Shown in pieces: positions 3,724 to 24,484 of a stretch of 64,000 bases of DNA. The stretch is from Desulfomarina profundi. GTDB taxonomy: Bacteria > Desulfobacterota > Desulfobulbia > Desulfobulbales > Desulfocapsaceae. The stretch is from assembly GCF_019703855.1 (NCBI RefSeq), contig NZ_AP024086.1:2996501-3060500 (forward strand), read 5' to 3'. How positions within the stretch are numbered: the stretch's first letter is position 1; every line of letters starts with the position of its first letter. Both the position numbers and the translations under genes were made by a program. The notes beneath the pieces are model-generated. The model was not told where the DNA came from and ran no database searches. It was given only the letters and a program-made list of their open reading frames with translations.

Positions 3724-4430
3724 ATGCCCACTCTTATGAAAAATTCAACAGGTTCAAAAATATTTGCCATCGGCGATATTCACGGATGCAATGATAAACT
3801 CGTCACGCTCCTGAAACGACTTCCGTTCGACAAAACAAGAGATACCATTATCTTTCTCGGGACTACCTCAATCGTGGAAGAGAGAGCCGAAAGGTTATTG
3901 ACACCCTTCTCGAGCTTGAAAAAGAGTGCAGAAACATCATATTTCTGCGGGGAAACCATGAACAGGAACTGCTCAGCTACAGTGAAACCGGGGACGTGGA
4001 AACATTACGGCTACTGCGCAAAATAGGAGTTGATGCCACAACCGAAAGCTACAATGTATCCGCCCGCAGGTTGCAGGGGCTTGCCTGTTTTCCTCCGGAA
4101 CATCAGCAGTTTCTACTGAATCTGCAATTCTGCCATATTACCGACAACTATATTTTTACCCATGCGGATTTCCATGAGGAACTGCTTATTCCGCCTCAGA
4201 AAACCACTGACACAGCAGCCTACTGCTACAATATGGAGGCCCGGCTGCTCTCAAGCAGACGCCTGATAGAAAAACAACCAACCAACCTGGACAGGGTAAT
4301 TGTTTTCGGCCATATTCCTTTCGAACTTCCCCTGGTCACTCCCGACCGGATAGGAATAGATACGGGGGCTGTCTACGGAAACGTTCTGACCGCGCTGGAA
4401 CTGCCAACCATGTGTTTTCACCATGCCTGA
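3724..4430 (+). CDS. Calcineurin-like metallophosphatase (single frameshift)
   Basis: A PrpE/ApaH-type serine/threonine or dinucleotide phosphatase. Metal-binding motifs appear in order: GDIHGC, then in the next frame GDYLNRG, RGNHE, a central His (FTHADFH) and FGHIPF. The frame changes at the G run 3859-3861. Adding one G restores GDYLNRG and gives one continuous protein of 235 residues (708 nt including stop). The start is ATG 3724; ATG 3736 is also possible. With every catalytic motif kept, a sequencing error is more likely than decay. It lies between repeat A1 and the convergent regulator gene, with no operon partner. Confidence 0.8.
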
Positions 4431-4469: not shown

Positions 4470-5813
4470 TTACCCGAGTCCATACATCTTTATCTTTCTC
4501 CAGAGAGTTGTCCTTGGGATATCAAGTATTTCGGCTGCCCGACTCCTGTTGTAACCGGTACTTTCCAGCACTGTCTTGATATAACGCCGCTCCATTTCAG
4601 CAAGAGAGGTCAGGCCATCACCCTCCAGGGTATCAAAGTCAAACTTCTGCAGGTCCCGGGGAAGGTCGTTGATGGTAATCTCTTCACCTCCGGTTAAGGC
4701 CACGGCGCGCTCTATTATGTTTTCCAGCTCACGGACATTTCCGGGATAACTGTAGTGAGTCAGGATATGCAATGCCTCTTTTTCCACACTGGAAACCTGC
4801 TTGTGAAAGGCCAGACAGTATTTCTGAATAAAATGGTTTACCAGAAGAGGAATATCTTCCCGCCTTTCCGCCAGCTGCGGGACATTCAGGGAAACAACGT
4901 TGAGACGGAAAAAAAGATCTTCCCGGAAAAGCCCCTCTTCCACTTCTTTCTTCAGATCTTTATTGGTTGCGGCAATAATCCTGATATCCAGATCTATAAG
5001 ATCCGTTCCTCCCACCCTGAATATCTTTCTCTCCTGAATCACATGAAGCAATTTGACCTGCATGGACAGAGGCATTTCACCTATTTCATCCAGGAATACG
5101 GTACCGCCTGATGCCGATTCAAGCAGGCCGATCTTGACAGCGGTTGCCCCGGTAAATGCCCCCCGTTCATGACCAAACAGTTCACTGCTGATCAGTTCAT
5201 CTGTGAACCCGCCACAGTTAAAGGAAACAAAAGCCCTGTCTTTTCTTGAGCTTAACTGATGTATCGCCTTGGCCACCAGGGCTTTACCCGTACCACTGCC
5301 ACCCTGGACCAGGACATTACAGTCCACATTGGCGACCTTGTTAATCATCGAAAAGAGTTCCTGAATGGCCGGGCTGTTACCCACGATGGAAGTGAGCCCC
5401 GACCCGCTTTTGAGTGCCTCACGAAGCCTGCGATTTTCGGCACGCATACTGATCTTATCCCTGGCATTCTGTGCCCAGAGACGAATATCCGAAAGGTTGA
5501 CAGGTTTGGCGATATAGTGATACGCACCTTTCCTGATAGCCTCAACCGCTGTTTCCACACTCTTATATCCGGTGATGATAATGACTTCTGTTTCGCTGCA
5601 ATACTGTTTTATTCTTACAAGAATCTCCAGTCCGTCCTGGTCCGGCAGGTTCATATCAAGAAAGACGATATCAAACCGTTTCTGTTTCATTCGCTCAAGA
5701 AACGAACGACCGGTCACAAAAGCCTCCACCGAAAACTCGTCTTTTCCCAGGGCCTTGGCAAGACGCCTGCAGACAATTTCCTCATCATCAACAATGGCGA
5801 GTTTGTATTTCAC
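4470..5813 (-). CDS. Sigma-54-dependent response regulator (NtrC family)
   Basis: 447 residues from a GTG start at 5813; the GTG overlaps the TGA of the upstream kinase gene (GTGA), with GGAG upstream. The receiver domain (1-120) has acidic residues D9/D10, phospho-acceptor D53 and K103. The AAA+ domain (about 140-370) has Walker A GGSGTGKA, the sigma-54 contact loop GAFTGAT and Walker [11 protein letters not shown] Fis-type helix-turn-helix ends the protein ([18 protein letters not shown]). It is cotranscribed with the histidine kinase. The sigma-54 promoter at 7617-7632, in front of the divergent operon, is its most likely target (inference). Confidence 0.95.
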
Positions 5814-7288
5814 GCGGCACTCCAATTGACAAAATCTTTCGGAATGGTGGGAAGAAGCACCGTGAACCTTGCTCCCTGGCCCTGTTCACTCTCCACCTCA
5901 ACACGCCCCCGTGCTGTTTGACTATGGAGTAGCAGACGGCAAGACCGAGACCGGTTCCCTCCCCTGTCACCTTCGTTGTATAAAAAGGCTCAAACAGTTT
6001 GTGCTGCACCTCTTTTGCAATCCCTTCCCCATTATCTTCGACTACAAATGCCAGAAAACCTGACATTGTAGAAAAATTAACGGACAGCCGAACCTCTCCC
6101 CCTTGGAAGTTGCCTGGACAGCATTCATCAATAGATTAAAAAACACCTGCTGCAGCTTTCTTAAACTCCCCTTTACCATGGGAAGATTTGCCGGAACAGA
6201 AATCTTGAGATCAATACCGGATAACTTAACCTGGTTTTTTATAAGATTAACCGTACTGTGAATGATTTCCTCCGGGACAACTCCTTAAAAACAGATTTTC
6301 CTGCATGGGAAAAGTCAAGGAGATTTCTTACAATATCGGCCACCCGCTCCGTCTGCTCAATAATATCCTGCAGCAACTCCATACCATAATCATCAAGGGT
6401 TTCCGCAAACTCCTCATGAAAGCTTTCAGCAGTCAGGGCAATATTATTGATGGGATTATTTAATTCGTGCGCAATACCCGCAGTAAATGTTCCAATGGCC
6501 GCAAGTTTTCTTGCCTGCAGCAGATCTTCCTGATGCTCCTTCAGCTCGCGGGCCATACGGTTGAAGGCATCAATCAATCCCGATATTTCTTCCAGGCTTT
6601 CACCCTTGTAGCGAATCGGCGAAAAATCACCATGCCCGACAAGTTCAGTGGTTCGCCTGACAATATCAAGTGGTTTAAGCAGACCGTTGGAGACCATCCT
6701 GAACCCTAGAATCATCACCGAGAGGAGAATAACCATGAAAACAAAGGGAAGAACCAGAGTGCGGACAATGGCGACATGGATATGTTTCCGTTTCAGTTCC
6801 CTGAACCTGACCGCATCCTCCGTGAGAGCTTTTCCTTCATCCCGCAGCCTGTCCATCACATCCCGCCGCCCCTTTTCCAGCAACGAGACAAGTTTTTTAT
6901 AGTTCTGCAATGACTGCCGAAAAACGATTACCTGCTCCTCTCCCTCAAGAACACTGAGATCATCGGACAACAAGTGAAATACTTTATCGATACGTCCGAG
7001 ATAAACCCTGCTGATCACCAGGTTTTTTTCATCACCATCAATCTGAAAGTTTTTTTCAAACCGCCGCAATTCAAGAATATCATCCACCAGGTCATCATAT
7101 GATTCACCCAGGTAGAGACGGGCCTTTATCACAGAAAGATTGTAGAAATTCAAGACAGCCAGAACACCTATTGAAAGAAAAGTAAAAGCAAATCCCACAA
7201 AGATTTTTCCCTTGATGGAATTCCATCTCAGTTTTCCAGCTGCAGATTGCCCGAGAGTTGAAAAAAACGGTATAGGTCGACGGCCCAT
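5810..7288 (-). CDS. Membrane histidine kinase, partner of the sigma-54 regulator (three frameshifts)
   Basis: Read through three repaired indels this is a 493-residue sensor. It has a TM segment at about 28-50, a mainly helical extracytoplasmic region at 51-170, a second TM at about 172-198, and a HAMP linker. HisKA carries phospho-acceptor H274 (IAHELNNP). The HATPase domain has an N-box-like [16 protein letters not shown] and GTGLGLAV. The frame breaks at 6274-6276, 6098-6102 and 5906-5910. One added G/C at each restores motifs such as HGGRVEVES, and the total becomes 1482 nt. Its stop overlaps the regulator start, so the two are translationally coupled. The ligand is unknown. Confidence 0.88.
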
Positions 7289-7616: not shown

Positions 7617-7632
7617 TGGTACTGATTTTGCT
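7617..7632 (+). promoter_or_regulatory. Sigma-54 (-24/-12) promoter of the PEPS-like operon
   Basis: TGGTACTGATTTTGCT matches the consensus TGGCACG-N4-TTGCW with the invariant GG and GC at the right spacing; there are two mismatches in the -24 block. It is 24 nt upstream of the universal stress protein ATG. The next gene on the other strand is a sigma-54 activator. Confidence 0.7.
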
Positions 7633-7656: not shown

Positions 7657-8070
7657 ATGGAAAAAATACTTGTGGCCATAGACAACAGACACAGGGCGTG
7701 GGAGGCACTTTCCCACGCCTGTTCACTGGTAAAACGTATCGATGCCGAACTCTATGTCCTGCTGGTGCTCTCCCCTGGACACAAAGATCGCGCACTTGCC
7801 GATATTGAGACTGAAATAAAAAAACGACTTGAACTGATTATAGAAAAAGCAAAAAGCGAAAATATTATAATTAATTTTTATCTGGTGGAGGGAAACTATG
7901 AACAGGAAATTATGACTTTTATTGAGCATAACAAAATCACCTTACTGACACACGAGGCAAACGAGAAAGACAAGGACGCGAGGATCCGGGACACCCGTTT
8001 TTTACGCTGTCTTCGATCTCAATTGTCCTGCGCAGTGGAAATTGTTGTTCCAAAAACAAAACCGATTTGA
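7657..8070 (+). CDS. Universal stress protein family protein
   Basis: 137 residues with an N-terminal UspA strand-helix start (KILVAIDN) and a C-terminal strand (AVEIVVPK). The typical ATP-binding G-X2-G-X9-G(S/T) loop is not clear, so it may be a non-ATP-binding type. The start ATG 7657 has GGGAG about 8 nt upstream and sits just behind the sigma-54 promoter, making this the first gene of the operon. A stem-loop (CGGCTG/CAGCCG, about 8167-8184) lies in the 160-nt gap before the next gene and could attenuate transcription. The role in the operon is unknown. Confidence 0.75.
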   Translation: MEKILVAIDNRHRAWEALSHACSLVKRIDAELYVLLVLSPGHKDRALADIETEIKKRLELIIEKAKSENIIINFYLVEGNYEQEIMTFIEHNKITLLTHEANEKDKDARIRDTRFLRCLRSQLSCAVEIVVPKTKPI

Positions 8071-8229
8071 CTGGACAAATAGAGGCTCCTGCCTTTATTC
8101 CCTCAGTCATTGCTGCACTTTTGCTACAGCGACAACACTGTTTTACTGTTATGAAAGTAACAGCGGCGGCTGAAAGACCAGCCGTTTCGATGGCTTTCAT
8201 AAGAAAATTAATTATTTTGAGAGGATTAT

Positions 8230-9177
8230 ATGGGCTTATCAATGCATCTTTATCTTCCTATCGCCGGAAATGCAGTGAACTTACTGGTCATTGTCGGTCT
8301 CGGGGGATTTGTCGGCCTGCTTTCAGGGATATTTGGAGTGGGTGGCGGTTTTCTCATGACCCCCCTGTTAATCATGATGGGGCTTCCCCCGACTGTTGCG
8401 GCTGCTTCTGATTCCAATCAGATTGTGGCTGCCTCCACATCAGGCACCCTCGCCCACTTTCGCCTGGGAAATGTGGATTTCAAGATGGGTTTTCTTCTGC
8501 TGATCGGAGGAATTGTCGGTGGCACCCTTGGAGTTCAGGTTATCAAGGTTTTGAGAGCCCTGGGAAATGCGGACTTTCTAATCAGTATCACCTACGTTCT
8601 GATGCTGGGTTTTGTCGGCGGATACATGTTTCTTGAGAGTCTCCAGGCCATGCGAAAAACCTCACAACCGGCTGCACAGACCACTCCAGATGCGTCACGG
8701 AAAAAAGAATCCACCTACGCGAGAATAGTCAACAGCCTGCCGTTCCAGATGGACTTTGTTCGCTCCGGTGTGCGAATTTCCGCAATTCTTCCCCTGGTTC
8801 TGGGCACATTCGTCGGAATCCTGGCTGCCATCATGGGTGTCGGGGGTGGATTTATCATGGTTCCCGTTATGGTTTACCTACTTCGCATGCCGATGCATGT
8901 CGTTGTAGGAACCAGTCTTTTCCAGATCCTGTTTACCTGTATTAATGTTACAATCATGCAGGCTTCGCAAAATCATACGGTTGATTTCATTCTTGCCCTC
9001 CTGCTGCTCATCGGATCATCGGTCGGCGCCCAGGTGGGTACAAAAATAGGGAAAAAACTGGACGGTGAGCAACTCAAAATCCTGCTGGCTTCACTGGTAC
9101 TCCTGGTGATGTTCAAAATGCTTTACCAGCTGCTGGTACAACCGGATATCCTTCTTGCCTACATGGGAGGACATTAA
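8230..9177 (+). CDS. TauE/SafE-family sulfite/anion exporter
   Basis: 315 residues, hydrophobic, with about eight membrane segments in two repeats. Each half starts with the family motif: GLLSGIFGVGGGFLMTPLL near residue 30 and GILAAIMGVGGGFIMVPVM near residue 200. A hydrophilic loop around residues 140-165 separates the halves. Family members export sulfite, sulfoacetate or other organosulfur anions, but the substrate here is not known. The start ATG 8230 has GAGAGGA upstream. The gene is followed by the TIGR02186-type gene with 1 nt between, so the two are surely coupled. Confidence 0.88.
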   Translation: MGLSMHLYLPIAGNAVNLLVIVGLGGFVGLLSGIFGVGGGFLMTPLLIMMGLPPTVAAASDSNQIVAASTSGTLAHFRLGNVDFKMGFLLLIGGIVGGTLGVQVIKVLRALGNADFLISITYVLMLGFVGGYMFLESLQAMRKTSQPAAQTTPDASRKKESTYARIVNSLPFQMDFVRSGVRISAILPLVLGTFVGILAAIMGVGGGFIMVPVMVYLLRMPMHVVVGTSLFQILFTCINVTIMQASQNHTVDFILALLLLIGSSVGAQVGTKIGKKLDGEQLKILLASLVLLVMFKMLYQLLVQPDILLAYMGGH

Positions 9178-9178
9178 A

Positions 9179-9949
9179 ATGCGGACCTACTCTTTCAAGC
9201 TTATACTTCTCTTAATACTTGCAGCACTCCCGTTGACACAACTTTCCGCCATGGCCGACGAGAATATCACCATCTCCGTCTCCCCCTCTCCTCTCCTGAT
9301 AGGGGCACAATACAACGGAGCTGACCTGACGGTAAAAGGCACCATCCCGGCCGGCAGTGATGTGGTTATCCGCTTTACGGGGGAACCCGAAGAATTACAC
9401 CTCAGGGAAAAGGGCAAGGCCTTTAACCTCCTCTGGATGAACGTGGGCACGGTTACATTTGACAATGTACCGAAAGTATTGCTCATTGAAACATCCCGCC
9501 CGTTTGAGGAACTTGGCCCGGAAGCAAAAACTCTCCAACTGGACTCTCTCCATAATACTGTGGAAGTTACAAAACCGGCGAGTTCTGAGGATATTGATCT
9601 TGTTCATGAACTTTTACTCTTAAAAAAGGAGGAATCCCTGTATAGTGAAAAGATCGGAGGAATCGTTCTGGGTCCTGATTCAGGACCAACACGAACATTC
9701 ACAGCCACACTGAAACTCCCTTCCGCACTGGCTCCCGGTGAGTACCAGGTGGAGGCTACTGCATTCCGGGATGGCAAACTCGTTGCAGACAGCAGGGTCG
9801 ACATGGAAGCCAGGCTGGACGGTTTTCCGCTCTGGCTCAGCAATATGGCATTTAACAACAGCCTCCTCTATGGAATCCTGGCGGTAGTAATCGCCATTTT
9901 CAGTGGCCTTGTTATCGGGCTTATCTTTCAGAGCAAGGGGGCACATTAA
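9179..9949 (+). CDS. TIGR02186-type (Alph_Pro_TM) membrane-anchored protein
   Basis: 256 residues. It has an N-terminal signal peptide (hydrophobic 7-25, then ALA-like processing near ADEN), an extracytoplasmic beta-rich domain and one C-terminal TM segment (about 230-252). The motif ISVSPSPLLIGAQYNGADL is typical of the family, which is usually found next to TauE/SafE transporters. That is the case here, one base after the transporter stop. It probably acts as a periplasmic partner of the exporter. ATG 9179 was chosen because an upstream in-frame ATG would overlap the transporter gene and precede the signal peptide. Confidence 0.8.
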   Translation: MRTYSFKLILLLILAALPLTQLSAMADENITISVSPSPLLIGAQYNGADLTVKGTIPAGSDVVIRFTGEPEELHLREKGKAFNLLWMNVGTVTFDNVPKVLLIETSRPFEELGPEAKTLQLDSLHNTVEVTKPASSEDIDLVHELLLLKKEESLYSEKIGGIVLGPDSGPTRTFTATLKLPSALAPGEYQVEATAFRDGKLVADSRVDMEARLDGFPLWLSNMAFNNSLLYGILAVVIAIFSGLVIGLIFQSKGAH

Positions 9950-9967
9950 CAACCACAGGGACTACAT

Positions 9968-12536
9968 ATGTACCGCAGCCTCAAAAACATACTCGTCGCC
10001 TGCCTGAAAAGAAACAGGGAGTTACCCGTCGCACGTTTCCTTGAGAAATTTCAGGTCATTCTGGAAAAAAGCAATGAAACGCTGCACCTGATGTCCGACA
10101 TGAATGACAAACTGGGGGGAGAGTATGTTTTTGATCTGCACTATATTGAAGAATCAGCTGAAAAGCTTGACGATCTACTGCTGAAAATCATCTCTGAAAT
10201 AAAAATTATCACACATCATCACACCCTTGATCTTTTCCCCGCATTTGAACGTATTCAACATACCATCCAGGAAGAACTTGCGGGAAAACACGTCCTGACC
10301 TCCGAGGCAATGGTTCTCCCTCTCCACGAGGTAACCGACTGGCAGAGGGACCTGGTCGGCGGCAAAATGGAAAGACTTGCCGGCCTTTCAAACCATCTCG
10401 GTCTGCGGATTCCTGACGGCTTTGTCATCACCACCCAGGCCTTTTTTCAACACCTGCAGCACAGCGATCTGGAGAATGTGATTGAGGAAGCAAAATATCG
10501 CCTGGATAAAAATGACGAAGACGGCTGGCGCAGGCTTGCCAGAACAATGAGAAAACAGATTACCGACACCCCTCTTCCCAGAAAACTCGTCACCAGGATC
10601 CACCAGGAATACGACGCTCTCATGGAACGAACAAACCGGAACAATCTGCGTGTCGCCATGAGAAGCAGTGCCTGGGGGAGGGTGGCAAGGCAAGTTTTGC
10701 GGGGCTCTACGACACACAACTGAACCTGACCCGGGATCAGCTCATCGACGGCTATCTGCAGATCATAGCCAGTGCCTATTCTTTCAAGGCACTGCAGTAC
10801 AGATTCAGCAAAGGATACGGAGAACAGGAGGTGGCCATGGCTGTCGCCTGCCAGGTCATGACCGACAGTACGGCAAGTGGCGTACTGCACACCTATATTT
10901 CTCACAAGTCAAGGGGAGCAATACATATCAACTCCATGTGGGGCTACTGCTCCGGTATCATGGAAGGCAGCCAGCCGGCGGACACCATTATTCTTGACCG
11001 GGAGCCACCCTACCCCGTTCTTTTCCAGAAAATTGCCGACAAGCAGCAGCAACTGAAACCCGATACAAAGGGAAAAATGGCCTGGCAACCCCTTTCCGGA
11101 AAACAACATAACATCCTCAGCCTGACGGAGGAACAGCAGACAACTCTCGCCCAGACCGCCAAAAGCATCGAGAGATACTACAAACGGCCCCAGGAAATCG
11201 AATGGACATTCGAGCATAACGGCCAACTGTCAATTCTCCAGACCCGTGATTCTCCTGTCGAGGAAACTCCGGCAGGGGAACAGCCTTTTCCTGTCAATAT
11301 AACGCGTGATGCGGAAATAATCTTCTCCGGCCAGGGGGTCACTGTCCAGCGTGGCATTGCCATTGGTAAAATTTTCGTCATCGACGAAAAAAATGACCTC
11401 AACGATTTCCCCCATGGAGCAATTCTGCTGACCCGGCATGCATCTCCGCGCTTTGCCGCCATTATGCATAAAACGAGAGGGATCATCACTGACATCGGCT
11501 CTGCTTCCGGACATATGTCCACCCTCGCCCATGAATTTCGCGTACCCACGGTTGTCGACACAAAAATAGCCACTCAACAGTTGAAACATGGGGATGAAAT
11601 CACCCTGGACGCCACCCAGAACATTGTCTACCGTGGAAAGATTACTGAGCTTGATCGATTTGAACTGACGGTTGAAGATGTATTTGAAGACTCATCGGAA
11701 TATCGTCTGCTGCGCCGTCTGCTCAATCACATTTATCCCATTACCATTCTTGAGCCACAGCTCGACAAAATAACATCAGCTTCATGTAAGACATACCACG
11801 ATATCATAACCGTAACGCATAAGCTGGCTATTGAAGAAATAGTCCACCTCAGTGAAAAACACGCTACCCAGAGCTTTCCGCCGCCAAAACAGATGAAAAC
11901 GACAATTCCCCTGGGTCTTATGATCATTGACGCCGGAAAAGGTACAACCTGCTCATTGACGGACAGGTATATCACGCTCGAACAGATCGTCTCACGACCT
12001 CTCCGGGATTTCTGGCAGGGTCTGGAAGAATCCGGAATGTGGAGGAATGATCCCGTTTCCGTTGACATGGGAAGCTTCATGTCCAGTATGACCAGAACCA
12101 CGTCTCTTTCGGCATCAGAAAAAGTAGGCAGAAATCTTGCCGTAATCCTGGACAACTACATGAACCTCAGTATTCAGCTCGGGTATCATTCAACATCCAT
12201 TGAAGCCTTTATGGCTGAGAACATAAATGACAATACCATCTATTTCAAATTCTTCGGTGGTGCCACGGAATTCATTCGCCGGGCAAGACGGACGCTTTTT
12301 ATCACCAATGTACTGAGACACTATGATTTTATGGTGGAAATCCAGGGGGATCTCGTGGCCGGGAGGGTCAAAAAACTGTCCATTGACCGCATGTCCCGCC
12401 GTATGATGATTCTTGGGGCCTTGTCGGCTATACTCGCCAACTGGACGCCCTTATGAATTCAGACGATGATGTGCTGCACCATACCCGATATTTTATTGAA
12501 ACCATAGAACGTATGGAATCTGGAGAGGGAAAATGA
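9968..12536 (+). CDS. PEP-synthase-like protein 1 of 3 (two frameshifts)
   Basis: With one G added at each of 10674-10678 and 12415-12418 the gene encodes 856 residues. An N-terminal helical region (1-110) is followed by a partial PPDK/PEP-synthase ATP-grasp domain (GLRIPDGFVITT, VAMRSS, ASFAGLYDT, LSILQTR). The swivel phosphohistidine domain follows (ASGHMSTLAHE, His about 516). There is no PEP-binding TIM barrel. In its place is a ~270-residue C-terminal domain shared with the next two paralogs (YMNLSIQLGYH). The repaired C-terminal stop TGA overlaps the ATG of the receiver gene (ATGA), which supports the repair. The reaction is unknown; a phosphotransfer role is inferred. Confidence 0.72.
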
Positions 12537-12940
12537 CCAACCGGCAAACAGGAGCGGGCACCAGCTTGAGCATTATTATCCTCGACGATGAACCCATTGT
12601 CTGCAAGAGACTGAAACCCACACTGCAACGCAAGGGATACGAAGTCGAAACATTTTCCGACGGTCCCGAGGCTCTTGCCCGACTGGAAGAACGGGTATTT
12701 GACATAGTCATTACAGACCTGAAAATGGGGACAATTGACGGTATGCATGTCCTTGAAAAGGTTAAGGCTGCTCATCCGGACACCCAGGTTATCATCATTT
12801 CCGGATTTGCCACCCTGGAGACCGCCAAAGAATCATTTAGAAAAGGGGCTTTTGATTTTGTCGCCAAACCGTTCAAGATCAATGAAATTCTGGAATGCGT
12901 GAAACGCATTGAAGACAACCGGAACAAAGGAAAAAACTAA
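12533..12940 (+). CDS. Receiver-only response regulator (CheY-like)
   Basis: 135 residues, a single receiver domain. It has the acidic pair in ILDDEP, phospho-acceptor Asp in VITDLKMG, Thr/Ser in IISGFAT and Lys in FVAKPF. There is no output domain. It is wedged between PEP-synthase-like genes 1 and 2 with ATGA and TAATG overlaps on either side, so its amount is tied to theirs. It may relay phosphate from a histidine kinase, possibly the one at 5810-7288, or from the phosphohistidine of the neighbours. Both ideas are inference. Confidence 0.9.
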   Translation: MTNRQTGAGTSLSIIILDDEPIVCKRLKPTLQRKGYEVETFSDGPEALARLEERVFDIVITDLKMGTIDGMHVLEKVKAAHPDTQVIIISGFATLETAKESFRKGAFDFVAKPFKINEILECVKRIEDNRNKGKN

Positions 12941-15564
12941 TGTGGCTGCAACACCTGTTTAAAAAACAACGTTCCACCGAAACAACACCGGCGGAAATAA
13001 ATATCTGGCACCTGAAATCGCTCTTTAATAATTTCAGGAAGATATTGCATCTGAACAACCGTATTCTCGAGAATATGGCACGGATGGAACAATCCCTCGG
13101 CGGTGAATATATCTTTGAAAAATCATTTCTGGAAAAAACGGTTCGGGTCATCGCCTCTGATGTGCATCACGTAACCTACAATCTCAATGCCCTGACCGAA
13201 AATGCCTATGTCCCCCTTTATGACAGGTACCAGGAGATCCGGATGATTCTGGATGACATCCTCTCCGGAAACACCAGGGCCCTGGCCTGCCCCCCCGTGC
13301 TTCAACTCCAGGAGATCGGCTGGGAAATGGAGCCGCTCGTGGGCATAGACCTGGTCTGCCTGGCTGAGCTGCGGCTTCACCCGGGTATTCAGGCGGGAAT
13401 CGGATTCATAATCACGGCAGAAGGCACCCAGGCACTTATTTCAGATGAAAAATCAGCAAATCATATTTCCAGATCAGACGTCAATTTCGGTATTGAAGAA
13501 CAGTTCGGCAGGCTTTTTCTGGAAGAAAGCAGCCGACGTATATCCGTCACCGCAACACAGATCAATGATGACATAGGTCTGACAAAAGACCTGGGCTCCT
13601 TTTTTATTGAACCGTCCCCGGACCACAGCCAACTGCTGGTACTTGACAACAGCTCCTCCTCCCTGGAAAAGAAAGAGCTCTTTGCCCAACCGGTGACCCA
13701 GGGAAAAATGGACAAAACAACAATTGCAGAATATGCCGAACCGATCCCAATTCAAAATTATATAGACTGTCTCCAATGGATCGTACAGACCGTCGACCCA
13801 GGACACTGTGATACGGATGAGGCACCTGTTCCCTTTGCAGTGTTTATCAGGCCTTCGCCGCCCTTTACCATGCATGGAACTCTGAAAACCAGAGCAAGCA
13901 GTTCAGAAACCACAATCCCTGCGCTTTCAATAACCTCGCATCTGAAAGGTCAACCGGAATCGGGGGATTCCTATCTTTTAAGCCGGACCTTTCCTTTTAA
14001 TCCCGTCCGCTCGGAAATAGTGACAAAATACCAGTCTTCCAGTTTTCCCGACGGAAATAGTGCTACCGATCATTCGGCCGACAACGGTAATTTTCGCCGG
14101 GGATCAGCCATAATCGGCAACAGCGATCTGAAGATGTTTGCCGAAACGGCCATGACCCTTGAGAGAATAATGGGTGTGCCCATTCGGCTCCACTGGGAAT
14201 GTCTTGCTGATGGCACATTTATCTTTACCCGCCTCTTTCCCTACCTGGAAACCTCGGAAGAACCGACAGCCCTGGAACTTCAGGAGGAACAGCAGAGTGC
14301 TGAACTTCTCTGCCTGGGAACACAGATTGTCCAGGAGGGTGTTGCTGCCGGTCATGTCTTCCATGTTACCAACGAGACCGCACTGGAAGATTTTCCACCA
14401 GGGGCCGTAGCTGTGGCCCGAACCGCAACGCCCGAACTGACCCCTATTCTCCAACGTGCATCAGCAATTTTAACTGAGTACGGTAATGTCACCGGGCATC
14501 TGGCCACCGTGGCGAGAGAAATCAGTCTCCCGGCGGTTTTCGGTATCCCCGATGTCCTTACCATGCTCCCGGAAGGTGAGGAAATCACGGTGGATGCGGG
14601 TCAGCTCAAAATCTATAAAGGAACCCTCAACACCCTTTTACGGGTCGGCAGCAGAAAGATGAACCTTTCCCCCGCAGATCCCGAATACAGGATCCTTCGC
14701 CGTCTTTTACGTTTTATAATGCCCCTGCACCTCACCAACCCGGAAACCCCGAACTTCTGTGTGGAAGGATGCAAGAGTTTCCATGATATCATCCACTTCT
14801 GCCATGAAAAATCAGTTGATGAACTGGCCCACTTCCAGGAGCGCCATCCCGGTCTCGGCTCTATCCGCACCAAGAGAATGCGTCTTGACATTCCCATGGA
14901 TATTCGTGTCCTGGATATCGGAGAGGGAGTGAATGAGCAGTTTGAAAAAGATCCTGTGGTTGAAAATATCAGGCAAGGACCATTTGCCGTATTTCTGGAA
15001 GGTCTCCTCAACCCGGATGCCTGGGAAAACGACCTCCCTTCCCTCGGCCTGCGCGATATCATCTCCAGCATGCCCCGTACAATGAATATCATGTCGCCCA
15101 CAGCCGCCGAAAATTTTGGTGAGAACCTGGCAATAGTAGACCACGATTATATGAACCTCAGCCTCCGTCTTGGTTATCATTTCAGTGTCATTGATGCTCA
15201 TATCGGCGATGACATGCATCGTAATTATGTCTATTTCCGTTTCTCGGGCGGACTGGCAAATCCGGACAGGCGCGCCCGCAGAGCACAGTTTATCTGCAAT
15301 GTGTTGCGTGACATGAACTTCAAGGTCTCCCTCAAGAGCGATCTTGTGGTGGGAAGACTGAAATTTGAGGAGACACTCCTGCTGAAGTCATCTCTTTACG
15401 TTCTGGGTGCACTTACAACCTTCTCCCGTCAGCGCGATACCAGTCTCTATTCCGACAATGAAACAAATATCCTCTATGAGTTTTTTGATAAAACCTTTTT
15501 AAGCCATTTTCATGAAACAGCGAAGGAAGGACGACGGGCAATCGCACCACCCAGAGAAGTTTAA
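12940..15564 (+). CDS. PEP-synthase-like protein 2 of 3, degenerate ATP-grasp
   Basis: 874 residues with no frameshift. The N-terminal helical region (1-115) resembles paralog 1 (both have GGEY(I/V)F). The ATP-grasp region is recognisable only by position: the VRSS and SFAG motifs are missing and the end motif QARP has become FTRLFP. The swivel domain is well kept (NVTGHLATVAREISLPAVFG, His 520). The C-terminal domain (about 590-860) carries KSFHDIIHFCHE, DYMNLSLRLGYHF and YVYFRFSGG, shared with the paralogs. It may be a phosphate acceptor rather than an ATP-using enzyme. ATG 12940 overlaps the receiver gene stop. Confidence 0.75.
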   Translation: MWLQHLFKKQRSTETTPAEINIWHLKSLFNNFRKILHLNNRILENMARMEQSLGGEYIFEKSFLEKTVRVIASDVHHVTYNLNALTENAYVPLYDRYQEIRMILDDILSGNTRALACPPVLQLQEIGWEMEPLVGIDLVCLAELRLHPGIQAGIGFIITAEGTQALISDEKSANHISRSDVNFGIEEQFGRLFLEESSRRISVTATQINDDIGLTKDLGSFFIEPSPDHSQLLVLDNSSSSLEKKELFAQPVTQGKMDKTTIAEYAEPIPIQNYIDCLQWIVQTVDPGHCDTDEAPVPFAVFIRPSPPFTMHGTLKTRASSSETTIPALSITSHLKGQPESGDSYLLSRTFPFNPVRSEIVTKYQSSSFPDGNSATDHSADNGNFRRGSAIIGNSDLKMFAETAMTLERIMGVPIRLHWECLADGTFIFTRLFPYLETSEEPTALELQEEQQSAELLCLGTQIVQEGVAAGHVFHVTNETALEDFPPGAVAVARTATPELTPILQRASAILTEYGNVTGHLATVAREISLPAVFGIPDVLTMLPEGEEITVDAGQLKIYKGTLNTLLRVGSRKMNLSPADPEYRILRRLLRFIMPLHLTNPETPNFCVEGCKSFHDIIHFCHEKSVDELAHFQERHPGLGSIRTKRMRLDIPMDIRVLDIGEGVNEQFEKDPVVENIRQGPFAVFLEGLLNPDAWENDLPSLGLRDIISSMPRTMNIMSPTAAENFGENLAIVDHDYMNLSLRLGYHFSVIDAHIGDDMHRNYVYFRFSGGLANPDRRARRAQFICNVLRDMNFKVSLKSDLVVGRLKFEETLLLKSSLYVLGALTTFSRQRDTSLYSDNETNILYEFFDKTFLSHFHETAKEGRRAIAPPREV

Positions 15565-15599
15565 TAACAGGAAACACCTTGCCCACAGCGGAGATCAAT

Positions 15600-18368
15600 A
15601 TGTTCAAACGACTTTTACAATACTATACAGACCGAAAACAGAACAGGGAGCGAATTGCCCTGGAAGAACTCAAGGCCCGTTATCACACCTTCCGGATTTT
15701 TCTTGAAAACAACGGCAGGGCCCTGGAACTGATTACCGGAATTGATGCCAACCTGATCCGTGGAGAAGAACGGGACATCCGCAAGGCCACCGATGAGCTC
15801 CTGGGGATTATTTCTGAACTGATAGACGGCTTAAACCTCCTTTCAGATTCATCGTACACATATCTCTATCCCATGCATGGACAGTTGAGTGAAAAACTGT
15901 TTGCTGCTCTTAAGGAACTCGCAGATCTTCCGGGTGATCGAAACTACTGTATCCCCCTGGACGAACTCGAAACGGAATCCTATCTCTATACTGGCAGAAA
16001 AGCGGCAAATCTGGCACAGTTACGAAAAATTGCCCTGCCGGTACCCAACGGTTATGTTTGCACAACCCATGCCTGCAAGGATTTTCTGGGTACTAATGAT
16101 CTCGCATCTGAAATCCGCCATCTTCTCAGGGGAGTCGAACAGGGACAAATGGATGTGGCCACGGCCTCAAACAAGATCAGGCAGCAGATCCGGCAAACCG
16201 CCCTACCCGAAGAAATCGCCTCAGCCCTGGCCGATTCCTATGATCTGCTGAAAGAAAGTGAACGTGAGACAAGTAACAGTGACAATACTTTCGCCATATC
16301 GGTCCGCTCCAGTGGTGTCAGTGAAGACAGTATTGAACACTCGTTTGCCGGACAGTTCGCTTCCATTCTCAACGTCATTGGGCACCAGTCTCTTTACGAT
16401 GCCTACAAACAGGTGATTGCCAGCGGCTTCAGTGAAAGAGCCATCTCCTACCGGATGAATGCAGGTCTTTCTCCAGTTGATTTCAACCTGGCGGTCCTCT
16501 GCCAGGTCATGGTTCCCGCCAAATGTGCGGGAGTCATGTTCACCGTAGACCCGTCGGACCCTTCCAGCAACAGAATGCTCATCAGCGCAGTCCCGGGACT
16601 GGGAACACTGGCCGTGGAAGGCTCTGCCCCCGCTGATCTGTACAGACCGCTACGTCCGGCTCAATTTCGATCTGATTTAGAAGAGGAGATCAAACCATTT
16701 CCTTCCGGAATTATCAGTGAAGACCGCGCCGCTCAACTGATGGATGGTGCACAGATAAACACTAAAACAATACGGGAAGTAGCAACGCCCTCGGGTGGGA
16801 TCCATCAGGAAACCCTGTCGGAAGAGGAAGCACAGGCATCCCTTCTGACTCTTCAGGAACTGGGAAAACTGGTTGACTACGGGGAGCTGATAGAAAGCCT
16901 CGAGGGAAGGGGGCAGGATATTGAATGGGCGTGCTCCGAAAAAACCGGGATTTCCATTCTCCAGGCGCGTCCTTTACGCCTGACTGCGAAAGGGAGCCGC
17001 AAACGCAGACAGCAGGACGAATCTGAACCTCTTTTGACAGGAATCTGTGCCTCTTCCGGGAAAACCACAGGCCAGGTCCAGTTGATCAATTCTTCCGTAG
17101 ACCTGGCCAAACTTACCTATGGCAGCAACAACGATCTGGATAAGGTTCCCTGCATTCTTGTCCTTTCCCAGTCCATTGTTGATGCGGCCAGCCTGATCCC
17201 GAAATGTGCCGGAACAATTGTCGACATAGGGAACCCCACAGACCATCTTTCCTGTATCGCCAGAGAACAGGGTGTTCCCATGATTACCGGAGCGGAAAAG
17301 GGCTCATCAACCCTGAAAAACGGCCAGTGGATAATTCTTGATGCCGATTCAGGTGTGGTAAGAGAAGCTGGTCCTTCTCTCCAGGATGCCGCAATCAAAG
17401 CCCACATCAAACGTCACGGGAAGCGACCGGGACGTCGCCCGGGAACTGGAGGACAAGCTGATGAAAACACGAAAAAAACCATATCTCCGGAACGGGAAAA
17501 ACTACGGAACATGATTGTACCCCTGAACCTGACGGATACATACGGCGCCACATTCTCCCATCTTGAGTGCCGCTCATTCCATGATATGATCAGGTTCACC
17601 CATGAAATGGCAGTTCTTTCCATGTTCAACACCGGGGACATGATTATGGACTATGCCGGCGGTATGCTGCACCCCCTTGAAATAGGGGTTCCCTTTTCGT
17701 TTCTGGTCATCGATGTGGGCGGCGGTATCAGAAGAGACAAGAAGAGTTCCCTCCTGAAGCAACTGGCTATTCATAAACCGCTGAGCACAGACGATGTCCT
17801 CTCCGTTCCCCTGCTCGCCCTCTGCGAAGGACTCACAACCCCAGGACTTTCCTGGCATACAGAACCGGATGCCGGAGCCATGGCTGATGTTTTTTCCCGT
17901 GGTATGTTTGATAAACGTGGGGCCCGTCCACTGGGGTCATTCAATTATGCTCTAGCCGCCCGTGACTACCTCAATCTTAACGCCAGGGTCGAATTTCACT
18001 TTGCAATGCTGGATGCCATCTGTGGCAGGGACACCCATGCAAATTACATCCGTTTCCGTTTCAAAGGAGGCGGTGCCGGCATGGAAAGAAGTCATCGGCG
18101 GGCCCTCTTTCTGCAGATTATCCTGGAGCATAATGGTTTTTATACCACGGTAGTGGGTGATCTCGTAACAGCCTCCCTGACCGGTGCCTCCAAACAGACT
18201 GTCTATGAGCAATTGATCATGCTGGGTCGGCTCTTCGGGTTCAGTCGTTTTCTCGATGGAATCATGACAGACGACAACAGTCCACACCTGCTGGCCAATG
18301 CCTTCCTGGAAGGGAAATACGATACAAGGGAAATAGCCGCTGCATCTCTGGAACAACTGAATTCATGA
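15600..18368 (+). CDS. PEP-synthase-like protein 3 of 3, complete ATP-grasp
   Basis: 922 residues; the most canonical of the three. It has an N-terminal helical region (1-115), then a full PPDK/PEPS nucleotide-binding domain: GRKAANLAQLRKI, VPNGYVCTT, VRSSGVSED, SFAGQFASILNV, CAGVMFTVDPSD and ILQARPLRL. The swivel domain has His 549 (NPTDHLSCIAREQGVP). The PEP-binding barrel is absent and the shared C-terminal domain follows (CRSFHDMIRFTHEMA, DYLNLNARVEFHF, NYIRFRFKGG). ATG 15600 was preferred over an upstream TTG because GGAG lies in front of it. It could be the ATP-dependent phosphorylating member of the set. Confidence 0.8.
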   Translation: MFKRLLQYYTDRKQNRERIALEELKARYHTFRIFLENNGRALELITGIDANLIRGEERDIRKATDELLGIISELIDGLNLLSDSSYTYLYPMHGQLSEKLFAALKELADLPGDRNYCIPLDELETESYLYTGRKAANLAQLRKIALPVPNGYVCTTHACKDFLGTNDLASEIRHLLRGVEQGQMDVATASNKIRQQIRQTALPEEIASALADSYDLLKESERETSNSDNTFAISVRSSGVSEDSIEHSFAGQFASILNVIGHQSLYDAYKQVIASGFSERAISYRMNAGLSPVDFNLAVLCQVMVPAKCAGVMFTVDPSDPSSNRMLISAVPGLGTLAVEGSAPADLYRPLRPAQFRSDLEEEIKPFPSGIISEDRAAQLMDGAQINTKTIREVATPSGGIHQETLSEEEAQASLLTLQELGKLVDYGELIESLEGRGQDIEWACSEKTGISILQARPLRLTAKGSRKRRQQDESEPLLTGICASSGKTTGQVQLINSSVDLAKLTYGSNNDLDKVPCILVLSQSIVDAASLIPKCAGTIVDIGNPTDHLSCIAREQGVPMITGAEKGSSTLKNGQWIILDADSGVVREAGPSLQDAAIKAHIKRHGKRPGRRPGTGGQADENTKKTISPEREKLRNMIVPLNLTDTYGATFSHLECRSFHDMIRFTHEMAVLSMFNTGDMIMDYAGGMLHPLEIGVPFSFLVIDVGGGIRRDKKSSLLKQLAIHKPLSTDDVLSVPLLALCEGLTTPGLSWHTEPDAGAMADVFSRGMFDKRGARPLGSFNYALAARDYLNLNARVEFHFAMLDAICGRDTHANYIRFRFKGGGAGMERSHRRALFLQIILEHNGFYTTVVGDLVTASLTGASKQTVYEQLIMLGRLFGFSRFLDGIMTDDNSPHLLANAFLEGKYDTREIAAASLEQLNS

Positions 18369-18378
18369 AAAATGCGGG

Positions 18379-20226
18379 TTAGAGCTCAAATAAAAACGGC
18401 AGACAAACCAATAAAACAACAGTAAACAGGACAGTGGCCCCGAAGCCCGCTCTGATATAGTCTTTTGTTCGATACCCTCCCGGGCGCATAATAAGAGCAT
18501 TGACCTGGTGCGTTGGCAGAATAAATGTGTTGGAAGCGGAGATAGCGACAACGACAGCTGCAGCAATCGGGTTCGTTCCGGCATCAGCAGCCAGGTTCAT
18601 GGCCAGTGGTATCATGAGGACTGTTCCCCCGACGTTTGAGGCTACAAGAGAAAAAAAGGAAGTGAGAATCGCCACAACCCCCATCACCACCATGGGAGAC
18701 GGCACTCCTGTAAAGGTAAGGACCTGATTGGCAATATAAGCTGCCGCTCCGGTTTTCTCAAAAGCGGTCCCGAGAGGGATAAGCCCGGCCAGCAAAAAAA
18801 CCGTTCGCCAGTCAACGGCCTCATAGGCTCGATCCGCCCTGATAATCCTGGTGATGATCACCCCGAGAGCTCCAGTCAGAAGAGCTATCGACAGTTTGAT
18901 CTCAAAACTCAATGCCAGGATCATGGACAGAAAGAGGAAAAAAACCGCACACCTTGAGCGCTCCGGCTTCAATCTTTCCCCGTAAATATCACCAATCAGG
19001 GCAATATCCATTTTCTGCCGCAGAAGCTCAAACTGCTGCCATGGACCCTGGAGGAGGATAGTATCCCCCTGCCTGAGCTTGGTGACATTGATGTCTTTAA
19101 GAATTATGTGCTCACCACGAACAATGGCAAGCGGGTTCACCCGGTAAAGAGCACGGAACCTGAGTTCTTCCATGGTATGCTGGCTCAAATTGGAATGGGG
19201 AATGACCACACCTTCCATAACCCCGGTTTCCTCAGGAGAGTTTTCCTTCTCAAAGACTTCAAACTCCGGCTTGATGCGCCAGCCATGGTCTTCGGCAACA
19301 CGCTTGATCCGCTCTTCCGAGCTGATAATCCAGAGTACATCTCCAGGCTCCACGAGGGAGTGCTTTTTCGGAGCAAGGTTTTTCACAAAACTTTCACTTT
19401 TTGCAATACCGACGACGGTGATTTCATATTTGGGTCTGAGCTCCAGCTCCCCAAGAGTCTGGGCCGGGAAATATACTGGCACCTCCAGTTCATAACCATG
19501 CCCCACCACATCGCCATAAATATCCTGAAGCCGTTTTTCAGGACCGATATCTTCATGAACACAGGTCTCCGAAGGCAGCAGTTTCACACCAAAAAAATAA
19601 AAATAGAGCAACATGGAGATAAGCAGTGCTATCCCGATTGGAGTAATGGCAAACAGTTTCAGCGGTACAAAAGGATCCTGGGTCAAGGGGGTGCCATTGG
19701 ACTCCCACCAACCTGCCATCAGGTCATTCAACATTATGAGCGGACTTGATCCAATCAGCGTCAGGCAGCCACCTGTAATGGCACAAAATCCCATGGGCAT
19801 CAGGATCCTTGCCGCAGAAATCTTGAGCTGCCTGCTGATACGCATGGTTGCCGGGAGAAAAACAGCGGCAGCACCGATATTCTGCATAAGGCTTGAAATA
19901 ACGGCAACAGTTGCTGAAACAATCAGCATTATACGTTTTTCTCCGGTTCCGGCAATTTTAATAATCTGCGTGGCAACCGTATTCATAACACCGGTTTTTT
20001 TCAATCCGGCTCCTATTATCATTATGGCAATGATGGAGACTACGGCATCGGAACTTAGTCCCGCCACAGCTTCTTCAGGAGTAACCACACCGGAAAGCGG
20101 CAGCAAAACCATCATGAGAAGCCCGACAAGATCAACCCGGAGCAGATCAAAAACAAAAAGGATCATGGCCAGGCCAAGAAGGACAAAGACTATAATCATT
20201 TCCGTAGTTAGAACAACTGGAACCAT
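18379..20226 (-). CDS. SLC13/DASS-family permease with central RCK_C domains
   Basis: 615 residues. N-terminal and C-terminal membrane halves (about 1-200 and 400-615) flank a soluble block (about 215-390) that looks like two TrkA-C (RCK_C) domains (GELELRPKYEITVVGI; MEELRFRALYRVNPLAIVR). The family motif SNTFILPTHQVN lies near the C terminus, with an SSPLIMLN motif in the first half. Members carry sulfate, dicarboxylates or other anions with sodium. It is convergent with PEPS-like gene 3 (10-bp gap), so it may be a neighbour rather than an operon member. The substrate is undetermined. Confidence 0.85.
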   Translation of the reverse strand: MVPVVLTTEMIIVFVLLGLAMILFVFDLLRVDLVGLLMMVLLPLSGVVTPEEAVAGLSSDAVVSIIAIMIIGAGLKKTGVMNTVATQIIKIAGTGEKRIMLIVSATVAVISSLMQNIGAAAVFLPATMRISRQLKISAARILMPMGFCAITGGCLTLIGSSPLIMLNDLMAGWWESNGTPLTQDPFVPLKLFAITPIGIALLISMLLYFYFFGVKLLPSETCVHEDIGPEKRLQDIYGDVVGHGYELEVPVYFPAQTLGELELRPKYEITVVGIAKSESFVKNLAPKKHSLVEPGDVLWIISSEERIKRVAEDHGWRIKPEFEVFEKENSPEETGVMEGVVIPHSNLSQHTMEELRFRALYRVNPLAIVRGEHIILKDINVTKLRQGDTILLQGPWQQFELLRQKMDIALIGDIYGERLKPERSRCAVFFLFLSMILALSFEIKLSIALLTGALGVIITRIIRADRAYEAVDWRTVFLLAGLIPLGTAFEKTGAAAYIANQVLTFTGVPSPMVVMGVVAILTSFFSLVASNVGGTVLMIPLAMNLAADAGTNPIAAAVVVAISASNTFILPTHQVNALIMRPGGYRTKDYIRAGFGATVLFTVVLLVCLPFLFEL

Positions 20227-22507: not shown

Positions 22508-23468
22508 TCAACAATCACCTGGATAATGGCACTCCACAAGTTTACCTGCCCGGACTTTCGGCTGAGGAGCCTCTTTTCTGCATCGAGCCTGACATCTGGC
22601 ACACCTGGGGTGGAAAGCACAACCGCTCGGCGGATCAATGGGATTCGGATATTCGATACCCAACCGGACTTCAGGCAGTCCCAATTGAGGTTCAGGTGTC
22701 AGAACAGAATCCAGCAATGCCCTGGTGTAAGGATGACTCGGGTGTTCAAACAGATCCCGCGCCCGTCCCTCTTCAACAATCCTGCCGAGATACATTACAG
22801 CCACATGGGTGGCAATATGTTCAACCACCGCCAGATCATGACTGATAAACAGGTAGGTTAAATTGAATTCCGCACGCAGATCCAGTAACATATTAAGAAT
22901 TTGTGCCTGTACTGAGACATCAAGGGCAGATGTGGGCTCGTCACAGAGTACAACCTCGGGCCGCATAATCAAAGCCCTTGCCACGGCCACACGCTGACGC
23001 TGTCCCCCGGAAAGCTGATTGGGATAATTATGCTTTAACCGGGGCGGCAAACCGACTATCTCCATGATCTGATCCACCTTCTGTTCAAGTCTGCCATTTC
23101 CCCCGGCAAGTCCCTGAGCCCTGAGCGGCAGGGAAATTATTTTGAAAATTGATTTTCTTGGATTCAACGAAGAATAGGGATCCTGGAAAACGGGTTGGAT
23201 AACCCTGGCAATTTCCTTGTGGGCCATTACGGAAATTTCCCGCCCCCGATATGAATATTTCCTCCGGTTTTTTTCTCAAGCCCGAGAATCATCTTGGCAA
23301 TAGTCGTTTTACCACAGCCGGATTCCCCACAAGACCAAGAATTGAACCTTTGGGTATAGCCAGACTAACCCCGTTTACAGCCTTCAGGGTTTTTCTGGAG
23401 CGAAACATCCCTCCACTGACCTTATATTCTTTTGCAAGGTTTTCAATTTGTAATGCATATTCATCCAT
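22508..23468 (-). CDS. Peptide ABC transporter ATPase, DppF/OppF-like (two frameshifts)
   Basis: 320 residues after adding one G/C at 23325-23328 and one near 23239-23247. Repair restores Walker A (LVGESGCGKTT). The Q-loop (QDPYSSLNPR), signature LSGGQRQRVAVARAL, Walker B VVLCDEPTSALD and the H-loop ISHDLAVV are intact. The C-terminal oligopeptide-type extension with Cys residues (CAFHPRCARCQARC) is typical of Dpp/Opp ATPases and binds a cluster in some. ATG 23468 overlaps the TGA of the upstream ATPase gene (TGATG). It powers the importer together with the 23468-24484 ATPase. Confidence 0.9.
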
Positions 23469-24484
23469 CAGCCTGCCCCTGTGCCACCCGACGCTCCAAC
23501 CTTTATATCCCCTGAAAAACCGGGTCGTACGCACCTGAATGACCGCTTGTCTGATATTTGTGTCAATTTCAACCCTTTGTCAGCACATTCCGGTACGGCA
23601 GACCTGCACCGGTTCCGGAAAGAACATCCCCACAATTCACCGATGGGAGTGGGTACGATACCCGGAATTGATCCCAGTTTTTTACCCGGCTCTGTTTTGC
23701 CGGGCACCGGAATGCACTCCAGCAACCCTTTAGTGTAGGGATGAATAGGATTGGTGAAAATCTCATCGATATTACCTGTTTCAACCACTTCTCCACAATA
23801 CATGACTACCACATCATCGGCGACTCTGGCCACCACACCCAGATCGTGAGTAATGAGAATCATCCCCATGTTGAATTCCTTCTGGATGGAGGAAAGCAAC
23901 TTCAGGATCTGCGCCTGAATAGTCACGTCAAGGGCCGTTGTGGGCTCATCTGCAATGATTAGAGAAGGCCCGCACATCAGTCCCATTGCAATCATTATCC
24001 TCTGCCGCAATCCTCCTGAAAGCTGATGGGGATATTGCTTAAGTCTTGATCCTGCACCAGTTATTCCCACTTTTTCAAGCAGATAAACGGCTCTTTCCTC
24101 AGCCTCAGTAACTGATACATTCTGATGCTCAGTCAATGCTTCAACAAGCTGGTTGCCAATAGAATAACAGGGGTCAAGAGAAGTCATGGGTTCCTGAAAT
24201 ATCATAGCCATTCTGGCTCCCCGATAAGTCGCCATTCTGTTCTCACTGAGTCCCTGGAGATTTTCCCCTTCAAGCTCTATCTTTGCTGCACGACAACTGG
24301 CAGAAGGCGGAAGAAGTCCCATAACAGCCATAGCCGTCATGGATTTCCCGCAGCCCGACTCCCCCACGAGACTCAGGGTTTTACCCTTCTCCACCTTGAA
24401 ACTCACATCCCTTACAGCATGGAGTGTACCGGCAGGAAGGGCCAGATCCACAAACAGGTGTTCCACCTCAAGTAAAATTGTCAT
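23468..24484 (-). CDS. Peptide ABC transporter ATPase, DppD/OppD-like
   Basis: 338 residues. It has Walker A LVGESGCGKSMTA, Q-loop QEPMTSLDP, signature LSGGLRQRIMIAMGL, Walker B LIIADEPTTALD and H-loop ITHDLGVV. The C-terminal oligopeptide extension has a Cys motif (CSFRNRCRSAVPEC). Its start overlaps the end of the second permease gene by 4 bp and its stop overlaps the DppF-like start, the usual tight packing of the dpp operon. Confidence 0.93.
   Translation of the reverse strand: MTILLEVEHLFVDLALPAGTLHAVRDVSFKVEKGKTLSLVGESGCGKSMTAMAVMGLLPPSASCRAAKIELEGENLQGLSENRMATYRGARMAMIFQEPMTSLDPCYSIGNQLVEALTEHQNVSVTEAEERAVYLLEKVGITGAGSRLKQYPHQLSGGLRQRIMIAMGLMCGPSLIIADEPTTALDVTIQAQILKLLSSIQKEFNMGMILITHDLGVVARVADDVVVMYCGEVVETGNIDEIFTNPIHPYTKGLLECIPVPGKTEPGKKLGSIPGIVPTPIGELWGCSFRNRCRSAVPECADKGLKLTQISDKRSFRCVRPGFSGDIKVGASGGTGAG

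Follow-up and report, generated by a model that had tools for sequence, protein, structure and literature searches.

Swivel dikinases with a receiver partner in DsrA-bearing bacteria: candidate output arm of a two-component system

What might a bacterium do with three tandem relatives of phosphoenolpyruvate (PEP) synthase whose genes flank that of a lone receiver domain and follow those of an anion exporter? The operon that raises this question lies in a 64-kb window (the whole stretch of DNA analysed here) of Desulfomarina profundi, a member of the phylum Desulfobacterota whose genome is a single contig of 4.3 Mb. On the forward strand, the operon encodes a universal stress protein (Usp; 7657-8070, PF00582, E 1e-8), a protein of the TauE/SafE (TSUP) anion exporter family (8230-9177, PF01925, E 1e-49), a TIGR02186/PF09608 membrane protein (9155-9949, E 1e-44), the PEP synthase-like (PEPS-like) protein P1 (9968-12536), a single-domain receiver with D18, D19, D62, S90 and K112 intact (12533-12940, PF00072, E 9e-30), and two further PEPS-like proteins, P2 (12940-15564) and P3 (15579-18368, PF01326, E 3e-69). 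The open frame continuing P1 ends with a stop codon at 12534-12536 that overlaps the receiver start codon (ATGA, 12533-12536), and the receiver stop and the P2 start overlap at 12940. On the reverse strand are encoded a sigma-54-dependent response regulator with matches to receiver, AAA+ and HTH_8 domains (4470-5825) and a membrane histidine kinase with HAMP, HisKA and ATPase domains, whose gene is frameshifted (5788-7288). A first-pass annotation made from the letters of the sequence had already described the Usp, the TauE/TIGR02186 pair, the divergent kinase and regulator, and the receiver overlapping its neighbours after the first paralogue, all of which the domain matches and coordinates bear out. 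A candidate sigma-54 promoter, TGGTACTGATTTTGCT (7617-7632, forward strand), is proposed from its consensus match alone (9 of 11 bases) and lies 25 bp upstream of the Usp ATG; a site of this -24/-12 type precedes the operon at 28 of the 61 homologous loci compared, versus 1.4 expected from mononucleotide shuffles. The convergent neighbour of the operon encodes a CitMHS/DASS-type anion transporter with a TrkA_C domain (18379-20226, reverse strand); DASS genes are also close to the module at L038, L043 and L053, and possibly provide sulfate uptake opposite anion export. A PPP-type metallophosphatase gene (GDIHG...GNHE) is frameshift-split in the window (3736-4430, forward strand; PF00149, E 2e-17 for its orthologue at L077). 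It stands at the other flank of the operon, unlike its orthologues at loci with all three PEPS-like genes, which directly follow P3; such a gene was found near P3, after it and on the opposite strand, at ten loci, mostly these trio loci.

All three PEPS-like proteins contain a PF00391 swivel domain with its phosphohistidine: His516 in P1, His520 in P2 and, in P3, His556 counted from the TTG at 15579, which is the His549 of the first-pass annotation counted from the ATG at 15600. P3 has an intact ATP-grasp. That of P1 (PPDK_N) is complete as well, although spread over two frames by a break at a G5 run near 10675, and P1 orthologues are intact frames; P2 is the sole one of the three with no recognisable ATP-grasp. 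The earlier statements that only the third protein has a full ATP-grasp, and that it alone uses ATP, therefore have to be given up, since the residues of the ATP site are retained both in P1 and in its orthologues. P1 and P3 combine both domains of the swivel-dikinase superfamily with their catalytic residues (P1 being placed by residues, P3 by residues and fold), and P2 is a carrier alone. An alignment of 62 sequences, compiled without P2-type members of the derived clade, shows no variation in the ATP-grasp residues, in swivel His556 or in a set of C-terminal residues; among all members examined, the swivel histidine is retained throughout, and the ATP-grasp residues in nearly all that fall outside the derived P2 clade. 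The AlphaFold2 model of full-length P3 (pLDDT 85) aligns over residues ~121-598 with PEP synthase 2ols (E 1e-20, Z 38) and, at Z 37, with rifampin phosphotransferase (RPH), and past residue ~634 no match came from either family.

In PEP synthase and pyruvate phosphate dikinase (2ols, 1dik), ATP-grasp and phosphohistidine swivel occur in the same order as here. Unlike those enzymes, the proteins of this operon have an added N-terminal helical domain, a dead ATP-grasp in P2 and no PEP/pyruvate barrel: Pfam gave no PF02896 match in P1, P2 or P3, and none of the homologues scanned carries a barrel, as the first-pass annotation had supposed. In place of the barrel stands a domain of ~280 aa shared by all three (14710-15561 in P2 and 17475-18365 in P3, both on the forward strand), which follows the swivel at about residues 484-600 of P3. 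Across 112 sequences of this C-terminal domain, H668, H675, H807, R841 and D861 (P3 numbering) are fixed and C664 and D669 nearly so. The isolated domain is modelled with a pLDDT of 86 and a pTM of 0.81 as alpha and mixed beta, with no TIM barrel. Comparison of 78 members with Pfam gave nothing convincing, sequence and profile searches of the PDB gave no match, and fold searches gave no confident PDB match (the lowest E from Foldseek was 0.07; the highest Z from VIA was 5.9, to coproporphyrinogen oxidase, in the Z range usual for unrelated folds). No convincing stand-alone copy was seen; among the matches listed, almost all are frames of ~750-1500 aa. Some paralogues with the domain are located outside the TauE module, and PEPS-like proteins of 1083-1144 aa at L024 and L026 have ~200 additional C-terminal residues.

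The trio is kept together in related genomes, as had been anticipated; in the neighbourhood search and the tree, P1, P2 and P3 recur as ancient paralogues. The P3 proteins are united in a single branch with support 100, and the P2 proteins make up another if L118_8312, to which an automatic rule gave the label P1, is counted as P2 by its gene position. Basal P2 proteins retain the ATP site. On the branch that includes P2 of the window, 9 to 14 of 14 ATP-grasp residues are lost in all 12 proteins, each of which has kept the swivel histidine and, bar one Asp-to-Glu change, the C-terminal residues checked. Identity among derived P2 proteins is 35% in the ATP-grasp versus 58-62% in the swivel and C-terminal domain, and P1 and P3 show 52% in the ATP-grasp. 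The ATP-grasp of P2 has thus diverged while swivel and C-terminal domain were kept, and carrier and C-terminal domain have therefore been under selection without a kinase site. HpeH may serve as a precedent by analogy: according to PMC12167813, this protein, which has a swivel and a substrate domain and no ATP-grasp, transfers phosphoryl groups on its own.

A scan of named genomes yielded about 80 homologous loci, nearly all of which show, whole or in large part, one module: histidine kinase/sigma-54 regulator, Usp, TauE, TIGR02186, PEPS-like protein and single-domain receiver. The module spans families and phyla, and its cultured carriers include Desulfatibacillum alkenivorans (L106) and Desulfacinum hydrothermale (L097); loci seemingly devoid of TIGR02186 or receiver possibly reflect the gene-calling limits of a simple open reading frame script. 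Where the gene downstream of a first-position PEPS gene was readable, it was directly a single-domain receiver in 62 of 68 cases, mostly overlapping or within 25 bp. In 67 receivers the Asp pair, phospho-Asp, Thr/Ser and Lys do not vary, and these proteins thus have the residues of two-component receivers. Further 3' follow more Usp genes, a histidine kinase or P2 and P3; the kinase gene is often found there (it stands beside the receiver at L021, L116, L125 and L126). No fusion of receiver and dikinase occurs in the loci scanned, and loci with large frames contained no receiver inside the frame when re-examined. At L025, L030, L032 and L035 a second module type was seen, in the order histidine kinase, receiver, TauE (~430 aa), a ~230-aa protein that has no Pfam match, PEPS-like protein and receiver. 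A cytidylate-kinase-like protein (PF13189) is encoded near the module at L053:1823-2671 and at six other loci. A literature search returned no paper on TIGR02186/PF09608 or on this gene cluster; Desulfovibrio vulgaris DVU2956-2967, where a sigma-54 regulator is paired with a TSUP gene, was considered and set aside, homology not being established.

The distribution of the C-terminal domain points to sulfur metabolism. Among 297 Desulfobacterota genomes, taken as raw counts that ignore relatedness, the domain was found in 107, dsrA above the cut-off in 143, and both in 102; dsrA is present in 102 of the 107 genomes with the domain versus 41 of the 190 without it. The five remaining carriers are genomes of 62-80% completeness, and all carriers in this sample that are at least 90% complete have DsrA. 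TIGR02186 occurs in 51 genomes, 50 of them with the C-terminal domain, and 44 of its 59 copies are no further than 4.5 kb from a listed match to that domain. Most carriers outside Desulfobacterota have dsrA too, including those in Latescibacterota, Zixibacteria, Myxococcota and unnamed lineages. A metagenome-assembled genome of Abyssobacteria seems to lack dsrA because the gene is truncated at two contig ends (starts at G331:C87 and G331:C125, no full copy). In the phylum of L107, 4 of 80 genomes are carriers: two have a full dsrA, one a fragment beside a dsrB-like match, and in one small genome (G417) no dsrA was seen. This suggests that the operon, common to DsrA-bearing bacteria, is a control circuit for sulfur respiration.

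The observations above concern domain architecture, the conservation of residues and of the operon, the history of the paralogues and the co-occurrence with DsrA. From them we infer chemical steps, gating by the receiver and a link to sulfite or another sulfur oxyanion as follows. The Dsr-linked swivel dikinase would be the output arm of a two-component system for sulfur-oxyanion control. The membrane histidine kinase and the sigma-54 regulator would turn on an operon that supplies an anion exporter (TauE and TIGR02186), Usp, one to three swivel dikinases and a dedicated receiver. P1 and P3 would phosphorylate their own swivel histidines from ATP, yielding AMP and Pi as homology predicts, and the swivel would deliver the phosphoryl group to a putative acceptor held by the C-terminal domain, the replacement of the pyruvate/PEP barrel. 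The receiver, phosphorylated by a histidine kinase, would dock on the dikinase and gate it, so that the two together would amount to a response regulator in two pieces whose output is enzymatic. P2 would either receive its phosphoryl group in trans, from P1 or P3, or act on the phosphorylated product. We give all these steps jointly a probability of roughly 0.5. An earlier scheme in which the histidine of P3 passes its phosphoryl group to P1 and P2 survives in part: flow to P1 is unlikely, because P1 and its orthologues keep their own ATP-site residues, and P2, having no ATP site of its own, is a plausible recipient of a phosphoryl group in trans. Judging from the link with DsrA and from the family name TauE, the exported anion may be sulfite; TSUP function is unpredictable from sequence (PMC5840216), and membership of the TauE family leaves the anion unspecified.

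The histidine kinase, sigma-54 regulator and CheY-like receiver are familiar from two-component systems in which the receiver stands as a single domain. What differs here is that the receiver has a swivel dikinase as its partner, a pairing for which the literature search gave no example. Gene adjacency fits a receiver that regulates the dikinase and one that accepts its phosphoryl group alike. In the latter case, the phosphoryl group would go straight from the swivel phosphohistidine to the aspartate of the receiver, and these proteins would be a new, ATP-grasp-based type of histidine kinase. The overlap of receiver and dikinase genes in many lineages, the invariant phosphorylation site of the receiver, the histidine retained by P2 in the absence of an ATP site, and the ability of Enzyme I to pass phosphoryl groups to proteins with the same swivel fold all agree with such a phosphorelay, but a conventional donor is at hand in the kinase encoded beside the receiver at the loci named above, and the C-terminal domain has invariant polar residues of its own, as expected of an acceptor-binding site. 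Gating is favoured over His-to-Asp transfer because the receiver so often adjoins a histidine kinase; to judge by the gene arrangement, the receiver more probably feeds a signal into the dikinase than takes a phosphoryl group from it, and we regard direct transfer as unlikely. Slightly more doubtful still is the extended form in which the dikinases would be histidine phosphodonors unrelated to HisKA/HATPase kinases, feeding a relay from P1 or P3 over P2 to the receiver and coupling sulfur respiration with DsrAB to anion export and stress response.

Another reading, which we consider improbable to the same degree as direct transfer, makes the proteins small-molecule kinases of metabolism or detoxification, in the manner of RPH, HpeHI and phenylphosphate synthase, with little or no role for the receiver. 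Indeed, the dikinase core is the same and its acceptor domain has been exchanged, as in RPH and HpeH. RPH (5hv1, 5hv3; PMC4844700) is likewise a swivel dikinase with an acceptor domain other than the PEP barrel; that domain lies between ATP-grasp and swivel, whereas here a different one follows the swivel, and the RPH model of NCBIfam (RIF_Ptrans_rph) scores 173 bits against a cut-off of 999. In HpeHI, phenylphosphate synthase and CreHI, the ATP site and the swivel/acceptor part are on separate proteins, and HpeH resembles P2; the available text of PMC12167813 places these enzymes in aromatic catabolism, mentions no receiver or exporter partner, and describes the HpeHI acceptor domain as homologous to that of RPH, which the C-terminal domain here did not match in the searches above. 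The core is of the known swivel-dikinase type represented by PEP synthase, RPH and HpeHI, and what is new is a C-terminal domain with a putative acceptor or regulatory role. With regulators, stress proteins and an exporter as its conserved neighbours, the dikinase is more likely to have a regulatory output than a catabolic one; pathway enzymes are absent from this neighbourhood, and nearly every first-position gene has a receiver next to it.

The state of P1 raises the question whether the operon is decaying in this genome, with P1 a pseudogene. P1 has a second frame break near 12414, close to the gene end, and departs from otherwise fixed positions by the substitutions D250G, Q259L and E676K (P3 numbering). 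However, P2, P3 and the orthologues are intact, and within the 64-kb window frameshifts also split the histidine kinase, the phosphatase and an unrelated ABC ATPase of the dipeptide type (22511-23470). Because unrelated genes are affected, the breaks in P1 are likely homopolymer errors of the assembly and not decay, which we hold to be rather improbable. That these are diverged PEP synthases still interconverting pyruvate and PEP is hardly credible, since the PEP synthase models, although the top NCBIfam matches, score well under their cut-offs (PRK06464, 242 versus 598 bits; TIGR01418, 234 versus 740 bits), and a domain modelled as alpha and mixed beta takes the place of PF02896.

The locus is thus, as first proposed, a candidate for an undescribed phosphotransfer-type system, which is kept in relatives, does without the PEP barrel and has its carrier histidine intact. 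A large family among the PEP-synthase-like enzymes has an acceptor domain of another kind, and this C-terminal domain is offered for study as one for which no known fold could be assigned with confidence. P2 represents a natural carrier enzyme in which the phosphohistidine was kept after loss of the ATP site. Together with its regulators, receiver and exporter, the swivel dikinase as putative output arm of a two-component system provides a model, open to experiment, of how dissimilatory sulfur metabolism might be controlled.
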